Source: a bacterium
Lineage (GTDB): Bacteria; CSSED10-310; JAJRTK01
Direction: 5' to 3'
DNA: 8,178 nt
Assembly: GCA_024278345.1 (NCBI GenBank)
Contig: JAJRTK010000056.1
Span: 1 to 8,178, forward strand
Shown: piece after piece, positions 1-8,178 of the stretch
How the letters are laid out: each line of letters opens with the position of its first letter
How positions within the stretch are numbered: the first letter of the stretch is position 1
Program-made: the position numbers and the translations under genes
The notes under the pieces: model-generated
Database searches by the model: none
What the model was told of the DNA's origin: nothing
What the model saw: the letters and a program-made list of their open reading frames with translations, nothing else

Positions 1-171
1 AGGCCCCGGACGACCTTCGGGTAACGCGCAGCGTGACCCGCTGAGCGATAGCGAGGCGTTGGCGCTTGCAGTTCCACAGTCCTGGAATTGTCCCGCGTTA
101 CGTGGATGCCCCAGCGCGGCGTTGCCCGCCGAGCGGAGCGCGGCGTTGCCCGTAAGCTAAGAAGACGATTG
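1..171. other. Non-coding, repeat-bearing left edge
   Basis: I see no credible gene here. GTAACGCG at 21-28 is complementary to CGCGTTAC at 94-101. Between them is a short stem TTCCA/TGGAA (72-76 with 83-87). A 16-bp direct repeat lies at 113-128 and 137-152 and is listed separately. The first 15 bases resemble the last 12 bases of the window (4-15 versus 8167-8178, 11 of 12 identical), so the edge may be the tail of a dispersed repeat. Function unknown. Confidence 0.5.
113..152. repeat. 16-bp tandem-like direct repeat
   Basis: AGCGCGGCGTTGCCCG occurs at 113-128 and again, identically, at 137-152, a 24-bp period with an 8-base spacer (CCGAGCGG). It sits in non-coding DNA. It may be part of a larger dispersed repeat family or a short minisatellite. 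No function can be assigned. Confidence 0.75.
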
Positions 172-198
172 TCTGCTTGGCGTATACTTTCACGGTAA
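172..198. repeat. Uninterrupted copy of a 27-bp dispersed motif
   Basis: The 27-bp stretch begins TCTGCTTGGCGTATA and ends CTTTCACGGTAA. A second copy is split in two: its left part is at 246-260 and its right part at 423-434, with the element at 261-414 plus one target duplicate between them. With the split copy rejoined, 25 of 27 bases agree. Both differences (179 versus 253, 184 versus 258) fall in the 8-bp target segment. This copy therefore serves as the empty site for the insertion. Confidence 0.8.
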
Positions 199-292
199 CA
201 CTCATGGAAAGGAATCGAGCCCCCCCGGGAGATGAAAGATAAATATCTGCTTAGCGTTTAGGGACCTATCAGATCCGGTTGACAAGTCCCCG

Positions 293-322
293 CACGAAAG
301 GAACCCACCGTTCCTTTCCGTG
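293..322. repeat. Hairpin inside the MITE-like element
   Basis: CACGAAAGGAAC (293-304) pairs with GTTCCTTTCCGTG (310-322), giving a 12-bp stem with one bulged C and a five-base loop CCACC. It lies wholly within the 154-bp element, so it is probably part of that element's structure rather than a host regulatory site. Confidence 0.65.
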
Positions 323-339
323 AATCCCGTCCAGCCCGC

Positions 340-358
340 CACCGGCAAGATGCCGGTG
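340..358. repeat. Perfect REP-like palindrome CACCGGCA-AGA-TGCCGGTG
   Basis: An 8-bp perfect stem (340-347 with 351-358) has a three-base loop. CCGCC at 336-340 can also pair with GGCGG at 366-370 as an alternative outer stem. From memory, this palindrome is widespread in several GC-rich phyla, where its reverse strand is often mistranslated as a peptide containing TGILPV; the reverse strand here reads that way. It lies inside the MITE-like element. Confidence 0.7.
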
Positions 359-424
359 CCACCAGGGCGGTGTCGCGGAGTGTAAAACAAAAACGCGGGG
401 ATTTGATAGGTTCCAGCGTTTACT

Positions 425-454
425 TTCACGGTAAGGCGGGACACTTTGTAAAAT
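425..454 (+). promoter_or_regulatory. Possible sigma-70 type promoter upstream of the repeat-protein gene
   Basis: A -10 candidate TAAAAT at 449-454 (5 of 6 to consensus) lies 18 bases after a weak -35 candidate TTCACG at 425-430 (4 of 6). Transcription would start at about 461, inside the palindrome at 458-477. The -35 half lies in the 27-bp dispersed motif. The -35 match is poor and such matches occur by chance, so this is only a candidate. Confidence 0.25.
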
Positions 455-487
455 AGGGGCTTCAGACGCCTGAAGCCGAGCCCGCCA
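435..487. repeat. Nested palindrome in the leader of the repeat-protein gene
   Basis: GGCTTCAG (458-465) and CTGAAGCC (470-477) form a perfect 8-bp stem with loop ACGC. An outer stem GGCGGG (435-440) with CCCGCC (482-487) encloses it. From memory, the inner palindrome is another common dispersed repeat of GC-rich bacteria. It ends 60 bp before the start codon, so it would lie at the promoter or in the 5' untranslated RNA. It could be an operator, an RNA hairpin, or simply a REP-like repeat. Confidence 0.65.
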
Positions 488-534
488 GATAGGGTCTTGA
501 GGGCGAAGCTTCCTTCGTGGGAGACAATGAATAG

Positions 535-542
535 AGGAGAGG
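535..542 (+). promoter_or_regulatory. Ribosome binding site that selects ATG 547
   Basis: AGGAGAGG precedes TTGATG. The core AGGAG (535-539) ends seven bases before the ATG at 547 but only four bases before the TTG at 544. Spacing and codon preference both favour ATG 547 over the upstream TTG, which would add just one residue. Confidence 0.75.
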
Positions 543-546
543 TTTG

Positions 547-3500
547 ATGCGAAAAGAGGTGTCCAAAGTTTTCTCCGGGAGTTTCATGGTTTTTTTGCTC
601 GTGGGCCTGTTTCTTCCTCTGCCCATGGGTTGGGCTCAGGGTTTGGGCACGGCCTTTGTCTACCAGGGTCACCTGGTGGAAGGAGGGTCTCCGGCTACGG
701 GGACGTTCGACTTCGAGATGGCCCTCTACGATGATGGGACCGCCGGAGCTCAGGTAGGCTCGACGTTGGTATTGGAGGACCTCCAGGTTACCGGCGGCCT
801 CTTCACGGCGACCTTGGATTTTGGTGCGGTGTTCGGGGGCAGTGCCACGTGGTTGCAGATCTCGGTTCGACCGGGGAGCAGCACGGATGCCTTCACGGTC
901 CTGACTCCCAGGCAGGAGTTGACTCCGACTCCCAACGCCTTGTACTCGGGATTCGCTGAATCGAGTGCCTGGTCGGGGATTTCGGGGATACCGGCCGATC
1001 TGGCCGACGGCGACGATGATACGACCTACACTGCTGGCAGCGGGTTGGATCTGGCCAGCGGCACTTTTTCGCTTTCGGGCTCCTTTCAATTGCCCCAGGG
1101 CTGCCAGCAGACGGAGCTTGCCGTCTGGGACGGCGTTCAGGGAGCATGGATCTGTGGGAACCTCGATACCATTGGCGGCGGTGATATCACCGCCGTGACG
1201 GCGGGGACGGGGCTCACTGGCGGCGGAGCTTCCGGCGGGGTGACGCTGGATGTCGATTTCGCCGGCGCGGGGTCCGCCGCCACTGTTTCCCGAAGCGATC
1301 ACACCCATGGCGGGTCGGATATCACCAGCGGGACCGTGGCCGAAAGCTATATCGACCCGGCGGTGGCCAGGGACTCGGAGATTCTTTCCACGGTGTTGGC
1401 GGGGGATGGCAGCGGAAGCACGTTGGACGCCGACTTGCTGGATGGTCTGGACAGCGCGGATTTCATGGCGGCCGCCGCCGACAACTGGGTGGACGTGACG
1501 GGGGACAGCATGACCGGGGCGTTGTCGGTGGCGGTGAGCAGCACGGCTCAGGCCATCGGCGGGGTGAACGCGGCCACGAGCGGCGCTGCTCCCGGGGTCT
1601 ATGGCGAGACGGCGTCCACGAGCGGCAAGGGGGTCTCGGGATTGGCGTCGAGTGGGGTTGGTTTCACGGCCGGCGTTCGGGGAGAGGCGGTCTCGCCGGA
1701 TGGCAAAGGGGTTTTGGGGATGGCGAGTTCCACGACGGGTTCGCCGTCGGGGGTTTTCGGGCGCGCCGATTCGACGGCTGGCCGTGGAGTGTACGGTTGG
1801 GCGTCGGCGACGGCGGGGAGTAGCATCGGCGTCTACGGGGTTACGGATTCGACGTCTGGCCGGGGGCTGTATGGCCTTGCGACGGCGACGACGGGGAGTC
1901 CTACGGGAGCGCTGGGGCTCGTGGATGCGCCGAGCGGCCACGGGGTTCTGGGGACGAACAATGCGATTATCGGTGAGGCCCGGGGTGTCATGGGGCGGAG
2001 CGATTCCACCAGCGGGAAGGCTGTGTACGGCTGGGCGACCTCGGCGACGGGGGGATCCATCGGGGTTTACGGCGTTTCGTTGTCCACCGACGGTCGGGGA
2101 GTTTACGGAGATAGCCAGGTGACGACGGGCACGACGTACGGGGTCCTGGGTCGGAACTTTGCTCCGGCGGGCGCCGGAGTCTTCGGGAATTCCATCTCCA
2201 CGACGGGTTCGGCGGCGGGAGTCCGTGCGGAATCGGCCTCGGCGGCGGGATACGGCGTCCGGGCGGTGAACTCGGCGGCCACCGGAATGGCGGTGGGGGT
2301 TTATGGAGAGACGGGTTCCACGGATGGTTGGGCGATTTACGGGATGGTGCCGGCGACGAGCGGCGCGGGGTACGCGGTTTACGGAGAGAGTTTTGCGCCC
2401 AACGGTCGGGCCGTTTTCGGCTGGAATATGGCAACTACCGGCGATGCGGTGGGGGTCTACGGGCAGACGGCATCGACGCAGGGGAAAGGTGTAATCGGTC
2501 AGGCGACCTCGACGACCGGCGGTTCGGTGGGGGTTTGGGGGCAATCGCTTTCCTCGGGCGGATACGGGGTCTTTGGGAGCGCGGCCGCCACCACGGGCAG
2601 TTCGACGGGGGTTTGGGGGCAGACGGCAGCGCCGAGCGGCAGGGGAGTGTACGGGAATGCGACCTCGACCACCGGCGGCAATGTTGGGGTTCTGGGAAAA
2701 AGTTCTTCCCCGGCTGGTTGGGGGGTCTATGGCCGTGCCACGGCGGCTTCGGGTAATGCCGAAGGGGTTACCGGGGAAACGGCGGCGCCTTCGGGGTCTG
2801 GTGTCAGAGGGATGGCCACGACGACCACCGGTGCGGCGTATGGCGTTTTCGGGGAGAGTTCGTCTTCCATCGGCCGGGCGGTTTTTGGGTGGAATTACGC
2901 CACTACCGGTGAGAGCATAGGGGTGTATGGACAGACCGGATCTCCTTTTGGCCGCGCCGTGGTTGGTGTCAACACGGCGACGACGGATACGGGTTCCGGA
3001 GTCTGGGGAGTCACCAGTTCCTCTACCGGCGGCATGGCAATCTGGGGGCTCGCCAATGTCGCGGGCGGCTACGCTGGCTGGTTCGATGGCGACGTGACGG
3101 TGATCGGCAACGTGAGTAAGTCTGGCGGCAGCTTTAAGATCGATCATCCCCTGGATCCGGCCAACAAGTATCTTCTCCATTCCTTCGTTGAATCGCCTGA
3201 CATGATGAACGTTTACAACGGAAACGTGGTCCTGGATGGAGCAGGCGAGGCCTGGATCGAGCTGCCGGACTGGTTCGAGGCGCTGAACCGCGATTTCCGG
3301 TACCAGATCACGCCCCTGGGCGGGCCGGCGCCGGACCTCCACGTGGCGGAGAAGATCACGGAGAACCGTTTCCGGATTGCCGGCGGTGAGCCGGGGCTGG
3401 AGGTTTCGTGGCAGGTGACGGGGATCCGGCGGGATCCGTGGGCGGAGGCTCACCGGATCCCGGTGGAAGAAGAGAAATCCACCAAGGAGAAAGGCTCGTA

Positions 3501-3627
3501 CTTGCACCCTGAACTCTATGGTGAACCGGAAGAACGAAGTTTGCGGTGGAGGCGCAATCCTGGGGTTTCGGAGATCCTTCGCCCCTCGCTGGAAGTTTCT
3601 GGCGAAGGGAAAGGCGGCCGGCCATGA
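547..3627 (+). CDS. Secreted, tail-fibre-like protein with 19 exact 26-residue repeats
   Basis: The protein has 1026 residues from ATG 547. Residues 1-31 form a Sec signal peptide: basic start, hydrophobic core, likely cut after GWA. Residues 33-140 look like a beta domain common in bacterial surface proteins (YQGHL, TPRQELTPTPNALYS). Next come a Cys-Trp-Trp-Cys segment with C186 and C203, GDITAVTAGTGLTGGG at 212-227, an LDADLLDG segment and DVTGDSMTGALSV near 316-328, all typical of tail-fibre or trimeric surface proteins. Residues 350-843 are 19 repeats of 26 residues. The C-terminal domain (about 858-970) begins GGSFKIDHPLDPANKYLLHS and is a conserved cap in such proteins; a charged tail with YLHPELYGEPEE follows. 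No sorting anchor or membrane helix is seen after the signal. The role is probably extracellular: adhesin, sheath or appendage. This is inference, and I know no named homologue. The gene appears to be transcribed alone; the next gene is 383 bp away. Confidence 0.88.
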   Translation: MRKEVSKVFSGSFMVFLLVGLFLPLPMGWAQGLGTAFVYQGHLVEGGSPATGTFDFEMALYDDGTAGAQVGSTLVLEDLQVTGGLFTATLDFGAVFGGSATWLQISVRPGSSTDAFTVLTPRQELTPTPNALYSGFAESSAWSGISGIPADLADGDDDTTYTAGSGLDLASGTFSLSGSFQLPQGCQQTELAVWDGVQGAWICGNLDTIGGGDITAVTAGTGLTGGGASGGVTLDVDFAGAGSAATVSRSDHTHGGSDITSGTVAESYIDPAVARDSEILSTVLAGDGSGSTLDADLLDGLDSADFMAAAADNWVDVTGDSMTGALSVAVSSTAQAIGGVNAATSGAAPGVYGETASTSGKGVSGLASSGVGFTAGVRGEAVSPDGKGVLGMASSTTGSPSGVFGRADSTAGRGVYGWASATAGSSIGVYGVTDSTSGRGLYGLATATTGSPTGALGLVDAPSGHGVLGTNNAIIGEARGVMGRSDSTSGKAVYGWATSATGGSIGVYGVSLSTDGRGVYGDSQVTTGTTYGVLGRNFAPAGAGVFGNSISTTGSAAGVRAESASAAGYGVRAVNSAATGMAVGVYGETGSTDGWAIYGMVPATSGAGYAVYGESFAPNGRAVFGWNMATTGDAVGVYGQTASTQGKGVIGQATSTTGGSVGVWGQSLSSGGYGVFGSAAATTGSSTGVWGQTAAPSGRGVYGNATSTTGGNVGVLGKSSSPAGWGVYGRATAASGNAEGVTGETAAPSGSGVRGMATTTTGAAYGVFGESSSSIGRAVFGWNYATTGESIGVYGQTGSPFGRAVVGVNTATTDTGSGVWGVTSSSTGGMAIWGLANVAGGYAGWFDGDVTVIGNVSKSGGSFKIDHPLDPANKYLLHSFVESPDMMNVYNGNVVLDGAGEAWIELPDWFEALNRDFRYQITPLGGPAPDLHVAEKITENRFRIAGGEPGLEVSWQVTGIRRDPWAEAHRIPVEEEKSTKEKGSYLHPELYGEPEERSLRWRRNPGVSEILRPSLEVSGEGKGGRP
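1552..3075 (+). repeat. In-frame 78-bp tandem repeat array (19.5 units)
   Basis: A 14-residue half unit (1552-1593) is followed by 19 full units from 1594 to 3075, each exactly 78 bp with no insertion or deletion. The unit pattern is G-V-x-G at positions 1-4, S/A at 8, G at 11, then G/A-V/I-x-G at 13-16, T/S near 19-22 and G at 23. Two GVxG turns, 12 and 14 residues apart, make one unit. Units have diverged at the DNA level, including many synonymous changes, so the length is kept by selection and not by recent copying. The pattern suggests a beta-solenoid or beta-helix shaft. Confidence 0.9.
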
Positions 3628-3639
3628 TGGAGAGAGGAG

Positions 3640-3659
3640 CCGCCCCCGGCGCCGGGCGG
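3640..3659. terminator. GC-rich hairpin after the repeat-protein gene, possible terminator
   Basis: CCGCCC (3640-3645) pairs with GGGCGG (3654-3659) around a GC-rich loop, 13 bases after the stop codon. Only a short TTT follows instead of a U tract, so intrinsic termination would be weak. It could protect the 3' end of the mRNA or be chance in GC-rich DNA. Confidence 0.35.
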
Positions 3660-3870
3660 TTTCCCAATCCACCCGTTTTGGCTATGCTTTGTCCGCAAAC
3701 CGCCCTATTCCCGGAGTGGCTTGCTTTCCGCGGGTGTTGACAACGGCAGCGGCGTGGGAGCAGAGGTTCGGGCTATCGGTCGGGACGAAGGTCTGATTGG
3801 GGCCGTGGAAGTAGCGGTTCCATGGAGCTCAGCGGGATTTGGGGCTCAAGTTTGCCGGTGAAAAGGGGCG
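3660..3870. other. Intergenic stretch without a recognised feature
   Basis: I see no gene with a ribosome binding site and no clear promoter. TTGACA occurs at 3737-3742, as part of the 10-mer TTGACAACGG that also occurs at 7871-7880, but no -10 box lies at a suitable distance in either place. With the neighbouring repeat this makes the 383-bp gap between the first two genes (3628-4010). Confidence 0.5.
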
Positions 3871-3913
3871 AGTGGCGGCGGACGGACTGCCGCCGACAGG
3901 AGCGGAACGCAAC
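3871..3913 (+). repeat. Dispersed palindromic repeat, copy 1
   Basis: GGCGGC (3874-3879) and GCCGCC (3889-3894) form a hairpin. The tail at 3889-3913 (GCCGCCGACAGGAGCGGAAC, then GCAAC) matches the reverse complement of 7917-7941 at 22 of 25 bases. Homology stops after CAAC on one side and near AGTGGCGG on the other. It lies about 100 bp upstream of the UbiB-like gene, and the two copies point towards each other. Likely a REP-like family member. Confidence 0.75.
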
Positions 3914-3997
3914 TTGAAAATCCCGAAGCATGGCAATCTGAAAATGTCGAAGCCCGACTTGCTGGCAGGAACACGGACTTCTGTCCGGGCGGAAGCG

Positions 3998-4003
3998 AAG
4001 GGA
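3998..4003 (+). promoter_or_regulatory. Ribosome binding site for the UbiB-like gene
   Basis: AAGGGA ends seven bases before ATG 4011, a normal spacing, and supports that start codon. Confidence 0.6.
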
Positions 4004-4010
4004 ACAACCC

Positions 4011-5705
4011 ATGGCGCGCTCCATTACGGCCTTTTCCAGAACCTATAGGAACTTGCGTAGCATTCCGCGTCTTCGCCGTGTGGTGCAGGTTCTTTTGAAG
4101 CATGGTTTCGGCCAGCTCGTGGAAGAGCTGAACCTCATGTCCATTGTGACGCTGGGCAACCGGCTTGCCTTTTTCAAGCAGCGGCGCGGCGCCGAGCAGC
4201 GGTTCACCTTGGCCGAGCGGTTGCGGATGGCTTTCGAGGATTTGGGGCCGACCTACATCAAGCTGGGCCAGCTTTTGTACATGCGTCCCGACCTGGTGAC
4301 GCCGGAGATTAGCGAGGAGCTTCAGCGGCTCCAGGAAAAGGTGCCACCTTTCCCTTTGGAGGAAGCCCGGAGGGTGATGGAGGAAGAGCTTGGCCGGCCC
4401 GTGGGAGAAATTTTTGACGACCTCGACCCCGAGCCTCTGGGCTCCGCATCCATCGCCCAGGTCCACGCGGCGAAGCTCAAGGATGGCCCGGAAGTCATCA
4501 TCAAGATCCAGAGACCGGGGATTGCGCCGATCATCTCCCAAGACCTGACCATTCTTTTCAATTTCGCGCATCTTTTGGAGAAGACGATTCGCGAGGTAGA
4601 ACAGTTTCGGCCCGTGGAGATCGTAGAGGAGTTTGCCCGCTCCATCCGCCGGGAGCTCGATTTTGCCCTGGAGGCGTCCAACGCTGAGATTTTCCGGCGC
4701 AATTTCGAGGGAAACCCCGACATCAAGCTGCCGGAGATCTATTGGGATCTGTCTACGGAACGGGTTCTCACCATGGAGTTGCTGGCGGGGACCAGCGTCT
4801 TCGATGACAAGAAGCTCGACGAGTGGGGGCTGGATCGAAATGACCTGGCCCGGCGGGGAGCGAGCATTTTCCTTCGGATGGTGCTGGTGCATGGTTTTTT
4901 CCACGCGGATCCCCACTCGGGCAATTTTTTCGTGCTTCCCGATGGCCGGTTCGGGCTGGTGGATTTCGGCATGGTAGGCCGGTTGGAGGAGTCGTTCCGG
5001 GAATCGGTGGCTTCGCTGGTGATTGCGCTCCTGGCCCGGGATTACGAGCGACTGAGTCACGAGCTCATCGTCATGGGGGTCGTGAGCGCCGACGTGGATT
5101 TGCCGGCTCTCCGGCGGGATCTGGCCGACTTGGTGGAACCCTATTATGGGAAGCCCTTGGGGGCGATACCCTTCGGGGTGGTGATCCAGAGGATCGTGGA
5201 GCTGTCGTTCAAGTACAGCGCGGATCGGCCGTCGGAGCTCTATTTGTTGGCTCGGGCCATCGTGCTTGTGGAGGGGTTGGGGCGGCAGCTCGACCCCGCC
5301 CACGACCTGGTGGCGTTGGGGAAGCCCTTTGCGGTGGAACTGCTTCGTGAGCGTCTGAGCCCGAAGCAATTAGCGGTGCAGGCCTGGAAGATGAGCTTCG
5401 AGCTGAACGAGCTTGTGAAGGTCGTGCCCAGGGAGCTTCGGCGCATCATGACCAAGCTTGGGCAGGGGCAGCTCCGCCTTGGCCTTTATAGCGATGACGC
5501 GGATCGGATGCTGCGTCAGATGCGGCGGACCGGGTTTCATATCAGTCTGGCGCTGGTGATTGTGGGGCTATTGGTCTCGTCGGCATTGGTGGCGACTTCG
5601 CCCCATCCTCCATCCGTGGGATCCCTGCCGATTCTGTCGGCCATCGGCTATGGGGTGGCCAGCGTGGCCTTCCTTTGGCTCGTGCTCCGCGCGGGTCGGG
5701 AATAG
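4011..5705 (+). CDS. ubiB: ABC1/AarF/UbiB-family atypical kinase-like protein
   Basis: The protein has 564 residues, close to the length of E. coli UbiB. It has the ABC1 protein-kinase-like fold with the family hallmarks: KxGQ at 84-87 (K84, Q87), the alanine-rich loop GSASIAQVH at 144-152 in place of a glycine-rich loop, K165 in EVIIKIQRPG, ExD at E215 and D217, the catalytic loop HADPHSGN at 298-305 and DFG at 318-320. Ser303 stands where the family usually has Pro (HPGN). Two hydrophobic helices close the protein (about 511-530 and 539-560), as in UbiB proteins that sit at the inner membrane. Known members have an ATPase role supporting quinone (ubiquinone) biosynthesis or lipid homeostasis; the exact substrate here is unknown. 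No quinone genes lie nearby, so the symbol marks the family and not proven orthology. The metallopeptidase gene follows after 116 bp. Confidence 0.92.
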   Translation: MARSITAFSRTYRNLRSIPRLRRVVQVLLKHGFGQLVEELNLMSIVTLGNRLAFFKQRRGAEQRFTLAERLRMAFEDLGPTYIKLGQLLYMRPDLVTPEISEELQRLQEKVPPFPLEEARRVMEEELGRPVGEIFDDLDPEPLGSASIAQVHAAKLKDGPEVIIKIQRPGIAPIISQDLTILFNFAHLLEKTIREVEQFRPVEIVEEFARSIRRELDFALEASNAEIFRRNFEGNPDIKLPEIYWDLSTERVLTMELLAGTSVFDDKKLDEWGLDRNDLARRGASIFLRMVLVHGFFHADPHSGNFFVLPDGRFGLVDFGMVGRLEESFRESVASLVIALLARDYERLSHELIVMGVVSADVDLPALRRDLADLVEPYYGKPLGAIPFGVVIQRIVELSFKYSADRPSELYLLARAIVLVEGLGRQLDPAHDLVALGKPFAVELLRERLSPKQLAVQAWKMSFELNELVKVVPRELRRIMTKLGQGQLRLGLYSDDADRMLRQMRRTGFHISLALVIVGLLVSSALVATSPHPPSVGSLPILSAIGYGVASVAFLWLVLRAGRE

Positions 5706-5821
5706 GCGTCGACCGGAGGAAATGCGGCGCCTTGGCTTGTTTGTTGAGCAGTTGTTCCACGACTCGATTTGAGGAAAAGTGGTGAAGAAGGAATGGTGAA
5801 ACTTCTGGAGGGAGAGGAGCC
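5706..5821 (+). other. Spacer between the UbiB-like and metallopeptidase genes
   Basis: These 116 bp contain no clear hairpin terminator and no convincing promoter, so read-through from the UbiB-like gene is plausible. GGAGG at 5715-5719 precedes a 16-codon frame (5722-5772) with a spacing of only two bases, too short for a good start. GGAGGG at 5807-5812 serves the next gene. Confidence 0.45.
5807..5812 (+). promoter_or_regulatory. Ribosome binding site for the metallopeptidase gene
   Basis: GGAGGG ends nine bases before ATG 5822. A second purine run, AGGAG at 5815-5819, is only two bases from the start and is less suitable. Together they support the ATG at 5822. Confidence 0.6.
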
Positions 5822-7855
5822 ATGAGACTCAGAAGTCTGTTTGCGCGGCTGGTTGCCAGGTTTCGTTGGTGGAGAACGAACCCCGCGGCGTCAAATTCAC
5901 AGGGGCGGGGAGCTCTGGAGGATGGGCTGGAGCGCTGGAAGGTCGAGTTCCGGGAGAGTTGTTTTCTCCAGTCCCTCCTTCCCATGCCGTTGCCTTTGAC
6001 CGCCATCAGACTGCTCCGGCGACCGCCTCACGCCCCCCGTGAGCAGAGCGTTTCCCGGGGCGAAACGGCCTCTGTCGCCGCGGATCCCCACGGTGCCGAG
6101 CTGGTGGGCGATGTGGAGATGTCTTCGTTCGACGACGATCCGTTTGTGCGGCCAGCACACCTTGAAAAGCTCTCGAAGGACGAGTTCTACCTGGACGAAC
6201 GAGGTCGGCCCGTGGGGCTGGCGGGGCCCCGCGCCCGGATCTCTGAGCCAGAGACCATCGGGGTTCAGGCTGGGGCCGGAATCCGGCCCGTGGCCACCAA
6301 TCCCTGGTTCCTCCCCATGCCCAACGCCGACGGAAACTTCATCTTCGTGGAAGAGCCCCGCTTTCCGGTGCATCAGGTTCTGCGGACGTCCGATGGCAGG
6401 ATCGCCCGGACTCCCCAAGGGCTTGAAATTTGGGAAAAACGGGATCACCATCTGGGTCAGACGTCGGTTTTCGAGGCTATCGTCACGGTCAACCACGCCG
6501 TGGAACAATGGTATGGCCGGCGCGTCCCTTGGGGCGAGGATGGTCGGCTAGAGGTCCTGCCTCACGAGTTTGTCGGCCTCAACGCCTATTACAATCCTTT
6601 GGATAGGGCACTCCATTTTGGCGTCGTTCTCTATCGCATGCCGGAACGGGAGCAAGTTTATCTTTTCGAGATTTCCACTTCCTGGGAAGTCGCTGCCCAC
6701 GAGGGCGGCCACGCCATCCATGATGTACTGAAGCCCAACAAGGGGCTGGTGGATCCCGGTTATCGCCAATGGGGCGAGTCGTTTGGCGACCAGTTGGCCA
6801 TGTGGGTGTCGCTTGTGGACCGGGACCGGGTGGAGGCGCTTTTGGCCGAAACAGGCGGGGATCTAGGGCGGCGAAGCGCCTTGACGCGGATGGCCGAGGC
6901 GTTCGGGACCCTCCGGGGCGGGAAGGAAGGGCTTCGGGACGCCTTGAACGAGCTTCGGGTCTCTGATACCGGCGAGGGGTTCCACGAGCGTTCGCAGGTG
7001 CTTACCGGTGCGGCCTACTGGGTGTTCCAGGGGATCGCGGAGGCCTGGAGGAAGGAGGGGAAATCCCCCGCCGACGCGGTGCGGGAGGCGGGAAAAACCA
7101 TGGGCCTCTTCCTGGTCCGGTCCGCCGATCACACGCCGGAAAACTCCATGACCCTGGAAGACGTGGGGAAAGCCCTTCTGAAGGTCGATAAGGAGTATTT
7201 CTCCGGGAACTACCGGGAGCTCTGGACGGCGGAGCTCACCTGGAGGGAGATCCTGACCTCCCGGGCGCTGGAAGAATGGCAAGCCCACGAAGATTCCCTG
7301 CCAAAGCTGGTTTTGCCCGCCGAAGCCTCTCAGGAGGAAGCCGATGCAATGTTGCGGGGAAGCCTGGAGGAGCTTGGAATCGACCCTCCCTTCGCTCTTC
7401 GTCTCCAGAGCCACCAGCGGGACAAGAAGGGAAGGCGCTTCCTTCGGGTGGGACTGATGCGAAACGGCCCTTCGGCCACGCTGGGCAACCACGGGATCCT
7501 CAGTTTTCGGACCGACGGCAGCCTCATGGATTGGCTCTCGCCGCTGCCCCATGCACTGACGGCCGGCACGGCCATGGAGCTCCTGAAGAAGGCCGAGGAT
7601 TTGGGCCTGGACCGTTTGGAAGGCGCCCTTTCACTGGTTCCCACGGAGGATGGAGGCCACACGGTGCAGGTGGTCCACGAATGCAGGACCGAAGGCGATC
7701 CACACCTCATGGTCCACACTTTGGAGAACCCCCGCGGCGCACGCCACGAATATTTCTTCAAGGAGCGAACCCGTATCCTCCACCAGCGTCTCCGCCGAAG
7801 AATGTTGCCCAAGGGTGCGAAAATGGCCGATCCCCACGCCTGGTTCGCCCGGTAG
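5822..7855 (+). CDS. Thermolysin-like (gluzincin) zinc metallopeptidase homologue
   Basis: The protein has 677 residues. The zinc-binding motif HEGGH lies at 293-297 (H293, E294, H297). GESFGD at 318-323 gives E319 as third zinc ligand and D323 four residues on, as in thermolysin (E166, D170). DTGEGFHERS places H388 where thermolysin has its transition-state His231, followed by TGAAYW, which resembles the AAY segment there. Before the active site, VFEAIVTVNHAVEQW (216-230) and LNAYYNP (253-259) match the layout of M4/M36 N-terminal subdomains. These residues predict an active endopeptidase. Residues 1-130 are basic then low in complexity, with no clear hydrophobic signal peptide, which is odd for a usually secreted family. 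Residues from about 497 to 677 form a domain I do not recognise; 575-625 vaguely suggests a PepSY-like fold. The exact peptidase family and substrate are unknown. Confidence 0.8.
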   Translation: MRLRSLFARLVARFRWWRTNPAASNSQGRGALEDGLERWKVEFRESCFLQSLLPMPLPLTAIRLLRRPPHAPREQSVSRGETASVAADPHGAELVGDVEMSSFDDDPFVRPAHLEKLSKDEFYLDERGRPVGLAGPRARISEPETIGVQAGAGIRPVATNPWFLPMPNADGNFIFVEEPRFPVHQVLRTSDGRIARTPQGLEIWEKRDHHLGQTSVFEAIVTVNHAVEQWYGRRVPWGEDGRLEVLPHEFVGLNAYYNPLDRALHFGVVLYRMPEREQVYLFEISTSWEVAAHEGGHAIHDVLKPNKGLVDPGYRQWGESFGDQLAMWVSLVDRDRVEALLAETGGDLGRRSALTRMAEAFGTLRGGKEGLRDALNELRVSDTGEGFHERSQVLTGAAYWVFQGIAEAWRKEGKSPADAVREAGKTMGLFLVRSADHTPENSMTLEDVGKALLKVDKEYFSGNYRELWTAELTWREILTSRALEEWQAHEDSLPKLVLPAEASQEEADAMLRGSLEELGIDPPFALRLQSHQRDKKGRRFLRVGLMRNGPSATLGNHGILSFRTDGSLMDWLSPLPHALTAGTAMELLKKAEDLGLDRLEGALSLVPTEDGGHTVQVVHECRTEGDPHLMVHTLENPRGARHEYFFKERTRILHQRLRRRMLPKGAKMADPHAWFAR

Positions 7856-8101
7856 ACCGCAAGTGAGGGCTTGACAACGGACAGGATAGAGCAAGATCAG
7901 CGGTTTGTTTCTTTGGGTTGCCTTCCGCTCCCATCGGCGGCGGTCCCACCGCCGCTGTCCGCCTATCATCGCCCTTGACGCCTTCTCCATGCCCCAAAAG
8001 CGTTTTTTCCACCGAACGATGACCGAAGCCCTGCTCCGGGTATCCACGCAAGGCGGGACAGAACAGAAAAAAAAGGAAAACGCGTAGCGTACAAAAACGT
8101 G
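7856..8101. other. Downstream non-coding region
   Basis: No gene is supported after the stop codon at 7853-7855. The region holds the second dispersed-repeat copy (7917-7957) and an A-rich stretch at about 8066-8080. No classical terminator with a U tract is seen directly after the peptidase gene; the hairpin at 7935-7957 is the nearest candidate. Confidence 0.5.
7917..7957 (-). repeat. Dispersed palindromic repeat, copy 2 (inverted)
   Basis: GCGGCGGT (7937-7944) and ACCGCCGC (7948-7955) form a perfect 8-bp stem with loop CCC, extended to 10 bp by a G-U and a C-G pair (7935-7957). Its reverse strand matches 3889-3913 at 22 of 25 bases. It lies 62 bp after the peptidase stop codon and could stabilise the transcript end or block read-through. 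Confidence 0.75.
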
Positions 8102-8178
8102 GGTCCAGGGAGCGCGCTCCCTGGTGGGTGCAGGGCGAAGCCCTGCCAGGGGACGGGGGATGGAATCCCCGGACCACC
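8102..8178. repeat. Three-hairpin palindromic element closed by an outer stem
   Basis: Three perfect palindromes follow one another. CCAGGGAGCGCGCTCCCTGG (8105-8124) is a 20-bp palindrome. GCAGGGC-GAA-GCCCTGC (8130-8146) has a 7-bp stem and GGGGAT-GGA-ATCCCC (8156-8170) a 6-bp stem. GGTCC (8102-8106) can pair with GGACC (8171-8175), enclosing all three in a cloverleaf-like fold; it competes with two pairs of the first hairpin. No tRNA features such as a GTTCRA box or CCA tail occur. From memory, repeats of this style are dispersed in GC-rich proteobacterial-type genomes. The window ends here, so the element may be cut. Confidence 0.7.

Follow-up and report, generated by a model that had tools for sequence, protein, structure and literature searches.

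The 154-bp segment at positions 261–414 of the window (the whole stretch of DNA analysed, 8,178 bp) belongs to a family that is almost certainly a non-autonomous DNA transposon (MITE), moved by a DDE transposase acting in trans and generating an 8-bp target duplication. Copies of the family share exactly the same ends, are flanked by differing 8-bp duplications, have empty sites, occur nested within each other, carry no transposase gene and have multiplied within one genome. A DDE mechanism with supply of the enzyme in trans is what we infer for their movement.

Structure of the element and its insertion site

The terminal inverted repeats of the family are GGGACCTATCARATCC. Over 16 bp, the two ends matched at 14 positions in the window copy and at 15 in the consensus of subfamily A, to which this copy belongs. 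The length of 154 bp is below that needed for a transposase, and an Rfam search of window positions 1–8,178 gave no match. The following features were assigned:

172..198, + strand: nearby copy of the target repeat unit, taken as the empty site by the sequence-only reading (25/27 identity; about 30 partial genome matches to the surrounding repeat)
201..446, + strand: target repeat split by the insertion (ungapped match to the C178 copy when the element and one target copy are left out)
253..260, + strand: target site duplication, left copy, AGCGTTTA (sequence; 8-bp duplications in 55/65 sampled elements with both flanks)
261..414, + strand: MITE of subfamily A, 154 bp, no transposase gene (boundaries common to at least 38 other copies; 95.5% identity to the subfamily consensus)
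261..276, + strand: left terminal inverted repeat GGGACCTATCAGATCC; the adjoining GGTTGACA is conserved in nearly all copies (sequence; end-motif counts in the genome)
339..363, + strand: internal palindrome region CCACCGGCAAGATGCCGGTGCCACC, limits approximate, common to subfamilies A and B (consensuses; hairpin in folds)
399..414, − strand: right terminal inverted repeat, reading inward GGAACCTATCAAATCC; consensus GGGACCTATCAAATCC (sequence; consensus)
415..422, + strand: target site duplication, right copy, AGCGTTTA (sequence)

Removal of positions 261–422, i.e. of the element and one target copy, yielded the rebuilt site TCTGCTTAGCGTTTACTTTCACGGTAA, which agreed with TCTGCTTGGCGTATACTTTCACGGTAA at 172–198 at 25 of 27 positions; both mismatches lay within the 8-bp target. 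A check against the sequence showed that the coordinates in the sequence-only reading were all correct, including the 14 matching positions of the ends, AGCGTTTA at both flanks and the near-identity of the rebuilt 27-mer.

Several other repeats and reading frames were observed in the window. Positions 172–260 are part of a separate dispersed repeat with the unit TCTGCTTGGCGTATACTTTCACGGTAA, to which the genome has about 30 partial matches. Both ends of the window, 1–120 and 8090–8178, contain fragments of other GC-rich dispersed repeats (e.g. CTGGTGGGTGCAGGGCGAAGCCCTGCCAGGGG); these repeats recur in many sampled loci and act as insertion targets of the MITE. The ORF at 544–3627 is long and repetitive (1027 aa), with numerous GVYG-type repeats and a probable signal peptide; the one at 5822–7855 (677 aa) contains AAHEGGHAIHD, which is similar to a zinc-metallopeptidase motif. 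Neither ORF had a Pfam match.

Copies, target duplications and empty sites in the source genome

The source genome assembly comprises 6.06 Mb in 550 contigs and is 88% complete. BLAST of positions 172–434 against this genome gave at least 41 matches (the best 40 of 330 candidates were scored). Non-self matches corresponded almost exactly to query positions 90–243, equal to 261–414 of the window, most of them with 92–96% identity. The matches ended at the element boundaries. No fewer than 38 other copies, complete or cut by a contig end, had the same boundaries, far more than chance would produce. Among the matches listed, none covered 172–259; all others started at query position 89 or later and ended by 250. 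Among the matches listed, the 172–434 block was not repeated as a whole in the source genome. That 172–434 is a single composite dispersed repeat, with the flanking 8-mers internal to it, is therefore exceedingly improbable: it is true that positions 172–198 and the rebuilt site form part of a different dispersed repeat (about 30 partial genome matches), but no other listed copy of the element reaches into 172–259, and the 8-bp flanks, as given below, are not identical across copies.

The 16-base end motif occurred 337 times in the genome when up to two mismatches were allowed, as compared with three occurrences of a reversed control pattern; 159 occurrences were exact. The ratio between full and contig-truncated copies in the sample suggests a copy number of about 170–200 for the family, corresponding to approximately 0.5% of the genome; these numbers, like the palindrome counts below, rest on searches and samples of the genome. 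Many contig ends fell inside a MITE copy, and it is partly for this reason that the assembly is in 550 pieces.

For closer analysis, about 100 genome stretches were sampled and element ends were paired, which yielded 67 elements, 56 of them exactly 154 bp long. Both flanks were available for 65 elements. Identical 8-bp flanks were found in 46 of these and flanks matching at 7 of 8 positions in another 9. All 55 duplications differed from each other and showed no strong target consensus, which also argues against a composite repeat. About 10 of the 65 elements had no clean duplication; in some of these cases the ends of neighbouring copies had been wrongly paired, and the remaining ones may have recombined or decayed. 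Duplications that are of fixed length and all different indicate transposition and are decisive by themselves. The sequence-only reading had proposed transposition of a non-autonomous element, and this was supported by copies with the same ends, distinct 8-bp duplications and shared boundaries. Judged by the criteria for MITEs, the family members are shorter than 500 bp, lack a transposase gene, have terminal inverted repeats and are multicopy and dispersed with empty sites, and a fixed-length, copy-specific target duplication (8 bp) was found in 55 of 65 elements.

To look for empty sites, the two flanks of every element were joined and the result was compared with other sampled pieces of the same genome. 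Three sites had a close uninterrupted counterpart across the junction: L013 with L051 (94.6% over 92 bp), L042 with L138 (97.5% over 79 bp) and L027 with L070 (95% over 84 bp). The site in the window matched the uninterrupted copy on C178 (L239 236–319) at 82% over 84 bp, ungapped through the junction. This copy is stronger evidence for an empty site than the 27-bp copy at 172–198; the empty paralogous site of the sequence-only reading is real, and L051, L138, L070 and C178 provide better ones. On C533, an element of subfamily A was nested in an element of subfamily B with both the inner duplication CCGCCCCA and the outer duplication GATCACCC intact, and all intact B copies represent empty sites for this insertion.

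Two main subfamilies were distinguished, A and B, both of 154 bp, and rarer variants were present. Mean pairwise identity was 93.4% among 40 sampled members of A, the window copy being 95.5% identical to their consensus, and 96.8% among 23 sampled members of B. A and B have in common the right end, the central palindrome CACCGGCAAGATGCCGGTGCCACC and, at the left end, about 25 bp that include TTGACA. The occurrence of two subfamilies, the nested insertion and the mostly intact duplications indicate that a large part of the movement does not date far back.

The palindrome CACCGGCAAGATGCCGGTG was present in the consensus sequences of both A and B, indicating that it moves with the MITE in this genome. 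In the sampled genome DNA, the core GGCAAGATGCC had 59 distinct contexts within elements and two outside, both in one array; since the sample was MITE-centred, these counts do not give a genome-wide ratio. The core was absent from 280 kb of sequence from 80 loci of other genomes. The suggestion of the sequence-only reading that a REP-like palindrome is carried and spread by the element is thereby supported within this genome, on the basis of both consensuses and a MITE-centred sample. One MITE copy (L123 1–400, C325) had an interior apparently expanded to an array of CCAGCGGCAAGATGCCGCTGCCACC-like palindromes.

As DNA, the elements folded better than shuffled sequences (window copy, z −5.3; consensus A, −4.6; consensus B, −3.2). 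The palindrome and the folding would also fit a host-domesticated REP/BIME-like palindrome, retained for its function, with a REP-associated Y1 tyrosine transposase as its mobiliser. This explanation is very improbable, as the combination of two terminal inverted repeats of about 16 bp and 8-bp duplications is indicative of a DDE-type reaction, and neither REPs nor Y1 elements are known to produce such target duplications. Moreover, folding better than shuffled sequence is expected for any MITE. Open-frame length at 19 repaired sites did not differ from that at nearby control positions (p 0.52, in a rough and underpowered comparison), which does not favour domestication.

Search for the mobilising transposase

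For a MITE moved in trans, a DDE-type transposase would be supplied by an insertion sequence and would recognise the ends of about 16 bp, possibly about 28–30 bp including the conserved TTGACA. It would move the 154-bp element, and a staggered 8-bp cut in the target would give rise to the flanking duplication. Five transposase families were profiled in the genome (PF01609, NF033572, PF12762, PF01610 and PF00872). The first four gave a few hits, which were truncated or decayed, and none of the hit loci showed MITE ends when their flanks were searched for the end motif. PF00872 (IS256-type) had no match in the assembly, and an IS256-derived MITE was rejected on these grounds. Thus, of the two outcomes that the sequence-only reading had expected from a genome search, many 154-bp copies with differing duplications were obtained, while no element combining a transposase gene with matching ends was found among the five families in this fragmented, 88%-complete assembly.

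Remnants resembling ISAs1, ISKra4, IS1595 and ISL3 were present, several of them decayed or at contig edges. For ISKra4 there were decayed fragments only, below the curated cut-off, and the retrieved flanks contained no MITE ends. Insertion sequences of the IS1595 and ISL3 families generally have 8-bp duplications and GG ends. Mobilisation by one of these two types is a rather doubtful refinement: remnants of both are in the genome, and the visible IS1595 end, GGCTCTATATGCGATCC, has the GG start and GATCC in common with the MITE end, but this end and the visible ISL3 end, GGCTCTTCGCCATC, are otherwise unlike GGGACCTATCARATCC, with one end seen in each case. Direct derivation of the MITE from either IS1595 or ISL3 is not supported by the visible ends, which are not shared.

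Pattern searches for the end motif adjoining non-MITE sequence detected variant subfamilies, a copy on C203 interrupted by another repeat, and a site on C395. At the latter (C395:43026–43133), a stretch of about 30 bp resembling the left end (up to 90% identity) gave way to unrelated sequence until the contig end; this might be the edge of an autonomous element, as an unproven candidate. Another site, C142:2456, had the end motif before ordinary sequence with no transposase and was discarded as probably a chance or decayed end. The mobilising transposase has perhaps been lost from the fragmented assembly; a multicopy insertion sequence would be expected to collapse to a short contig, which a binned assembly tends to lose. 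The smallest contig encountered was about 3 kb. It is decidedly unlikely that the transposase lies outside the five searched families, that C395 carries the autonomous edge and that the MITE is the main spreader of GGCAAGATGCC in the lineage.

Another MITE-like repeat, about 200 bp long and bounded by GGCCTYGGTCATRGTACC, was observed at L138 about 341–540 (C5), L073 243–443 (C481), L019 147–348 (C338) and at the ends of L078 and L102. It is apparently flanked by 9-bp duplications, in two cases GTTCAAGCG and CCCCGATGC. The copy in C5 interrupts an ISL3 transposase gene.

Distribution and comparison with known MITEs

No BLAST similarity to the element was found in 59 other genomes, nor was there a MITE match by BLAST in plasmids and phages. 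The exact end motif had one single match across 385 other genomes, compared with 159 in the source genome. Longer end patterns were absent from 85,000 public genomes or viral contigs, among which the source genome and its near relatives are possibly not represented, and a literature search on the end sequence retrieved no paper on mobile elements. Because the phylum is sparse (7 other genomes compared), the family cannot be claimed to be unique to this species. For the ABC1/UbiB-like kinase of the host, the best matches reached just 34–40% identity and were scattered across many phyla.

The results describe a clean, heavily amplified MITE family in a bacterium of a sparsely sampled phylum, and a concrete case of a REP-like palindrome as cargo of a transposing element. 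The family is new, its kind is well known, and nothing changes in the knowledge of MITEs. ERIC and Correia elements generally have TA target duplications, whereas those of the present family are 8 bp long. Like the present family, ERIC and Correia reach at least 100 copies per genome (PMC10969869). The copy number found here is high yet inside the known range, ERIC having up to 711 copies in Photorhabdus (PMC10969869).

Prokaryotic MITEs are shorter than 500 bp, have inverted ends of 4–30 bp and direct repeats, lack a transposase gene, occur in many copies and show stable foldback (PMC10969869). The structural features listed for them were all found here except AT-richness; the present family, unlike prokaryotic MITEs in general, is a GC-rich element in a GC-rich genome (PMC10969869). 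Chunjie of Geobacter and QMITE2 of Coxiella resemble it in having many copies and variants per genome, but the present family is far more uniform in length, a likeness drawn by description only (PMC10969869). A REP-like palindrome is present in QMITE2 as well, truncated copies of which resemble REPs (PMC10969869); as such REP-like MITE remnants have been described in Coxiella, the idea that MITEs spread palindromes has precedent. The closest structural analogue among those compared is MITEAba12 of Acinetobacter, which likewise has a near-constant length (113 bp, compared with 154 bp here), ends of about 16 bp and target duplications that follow no clear sequence motif (PMC6382973). MITEAba12 differs in its 9-bp duplications, its end sequence, its far fewer copies per genome and its known parent, ISAba12, with matching ends (PMC6382973).
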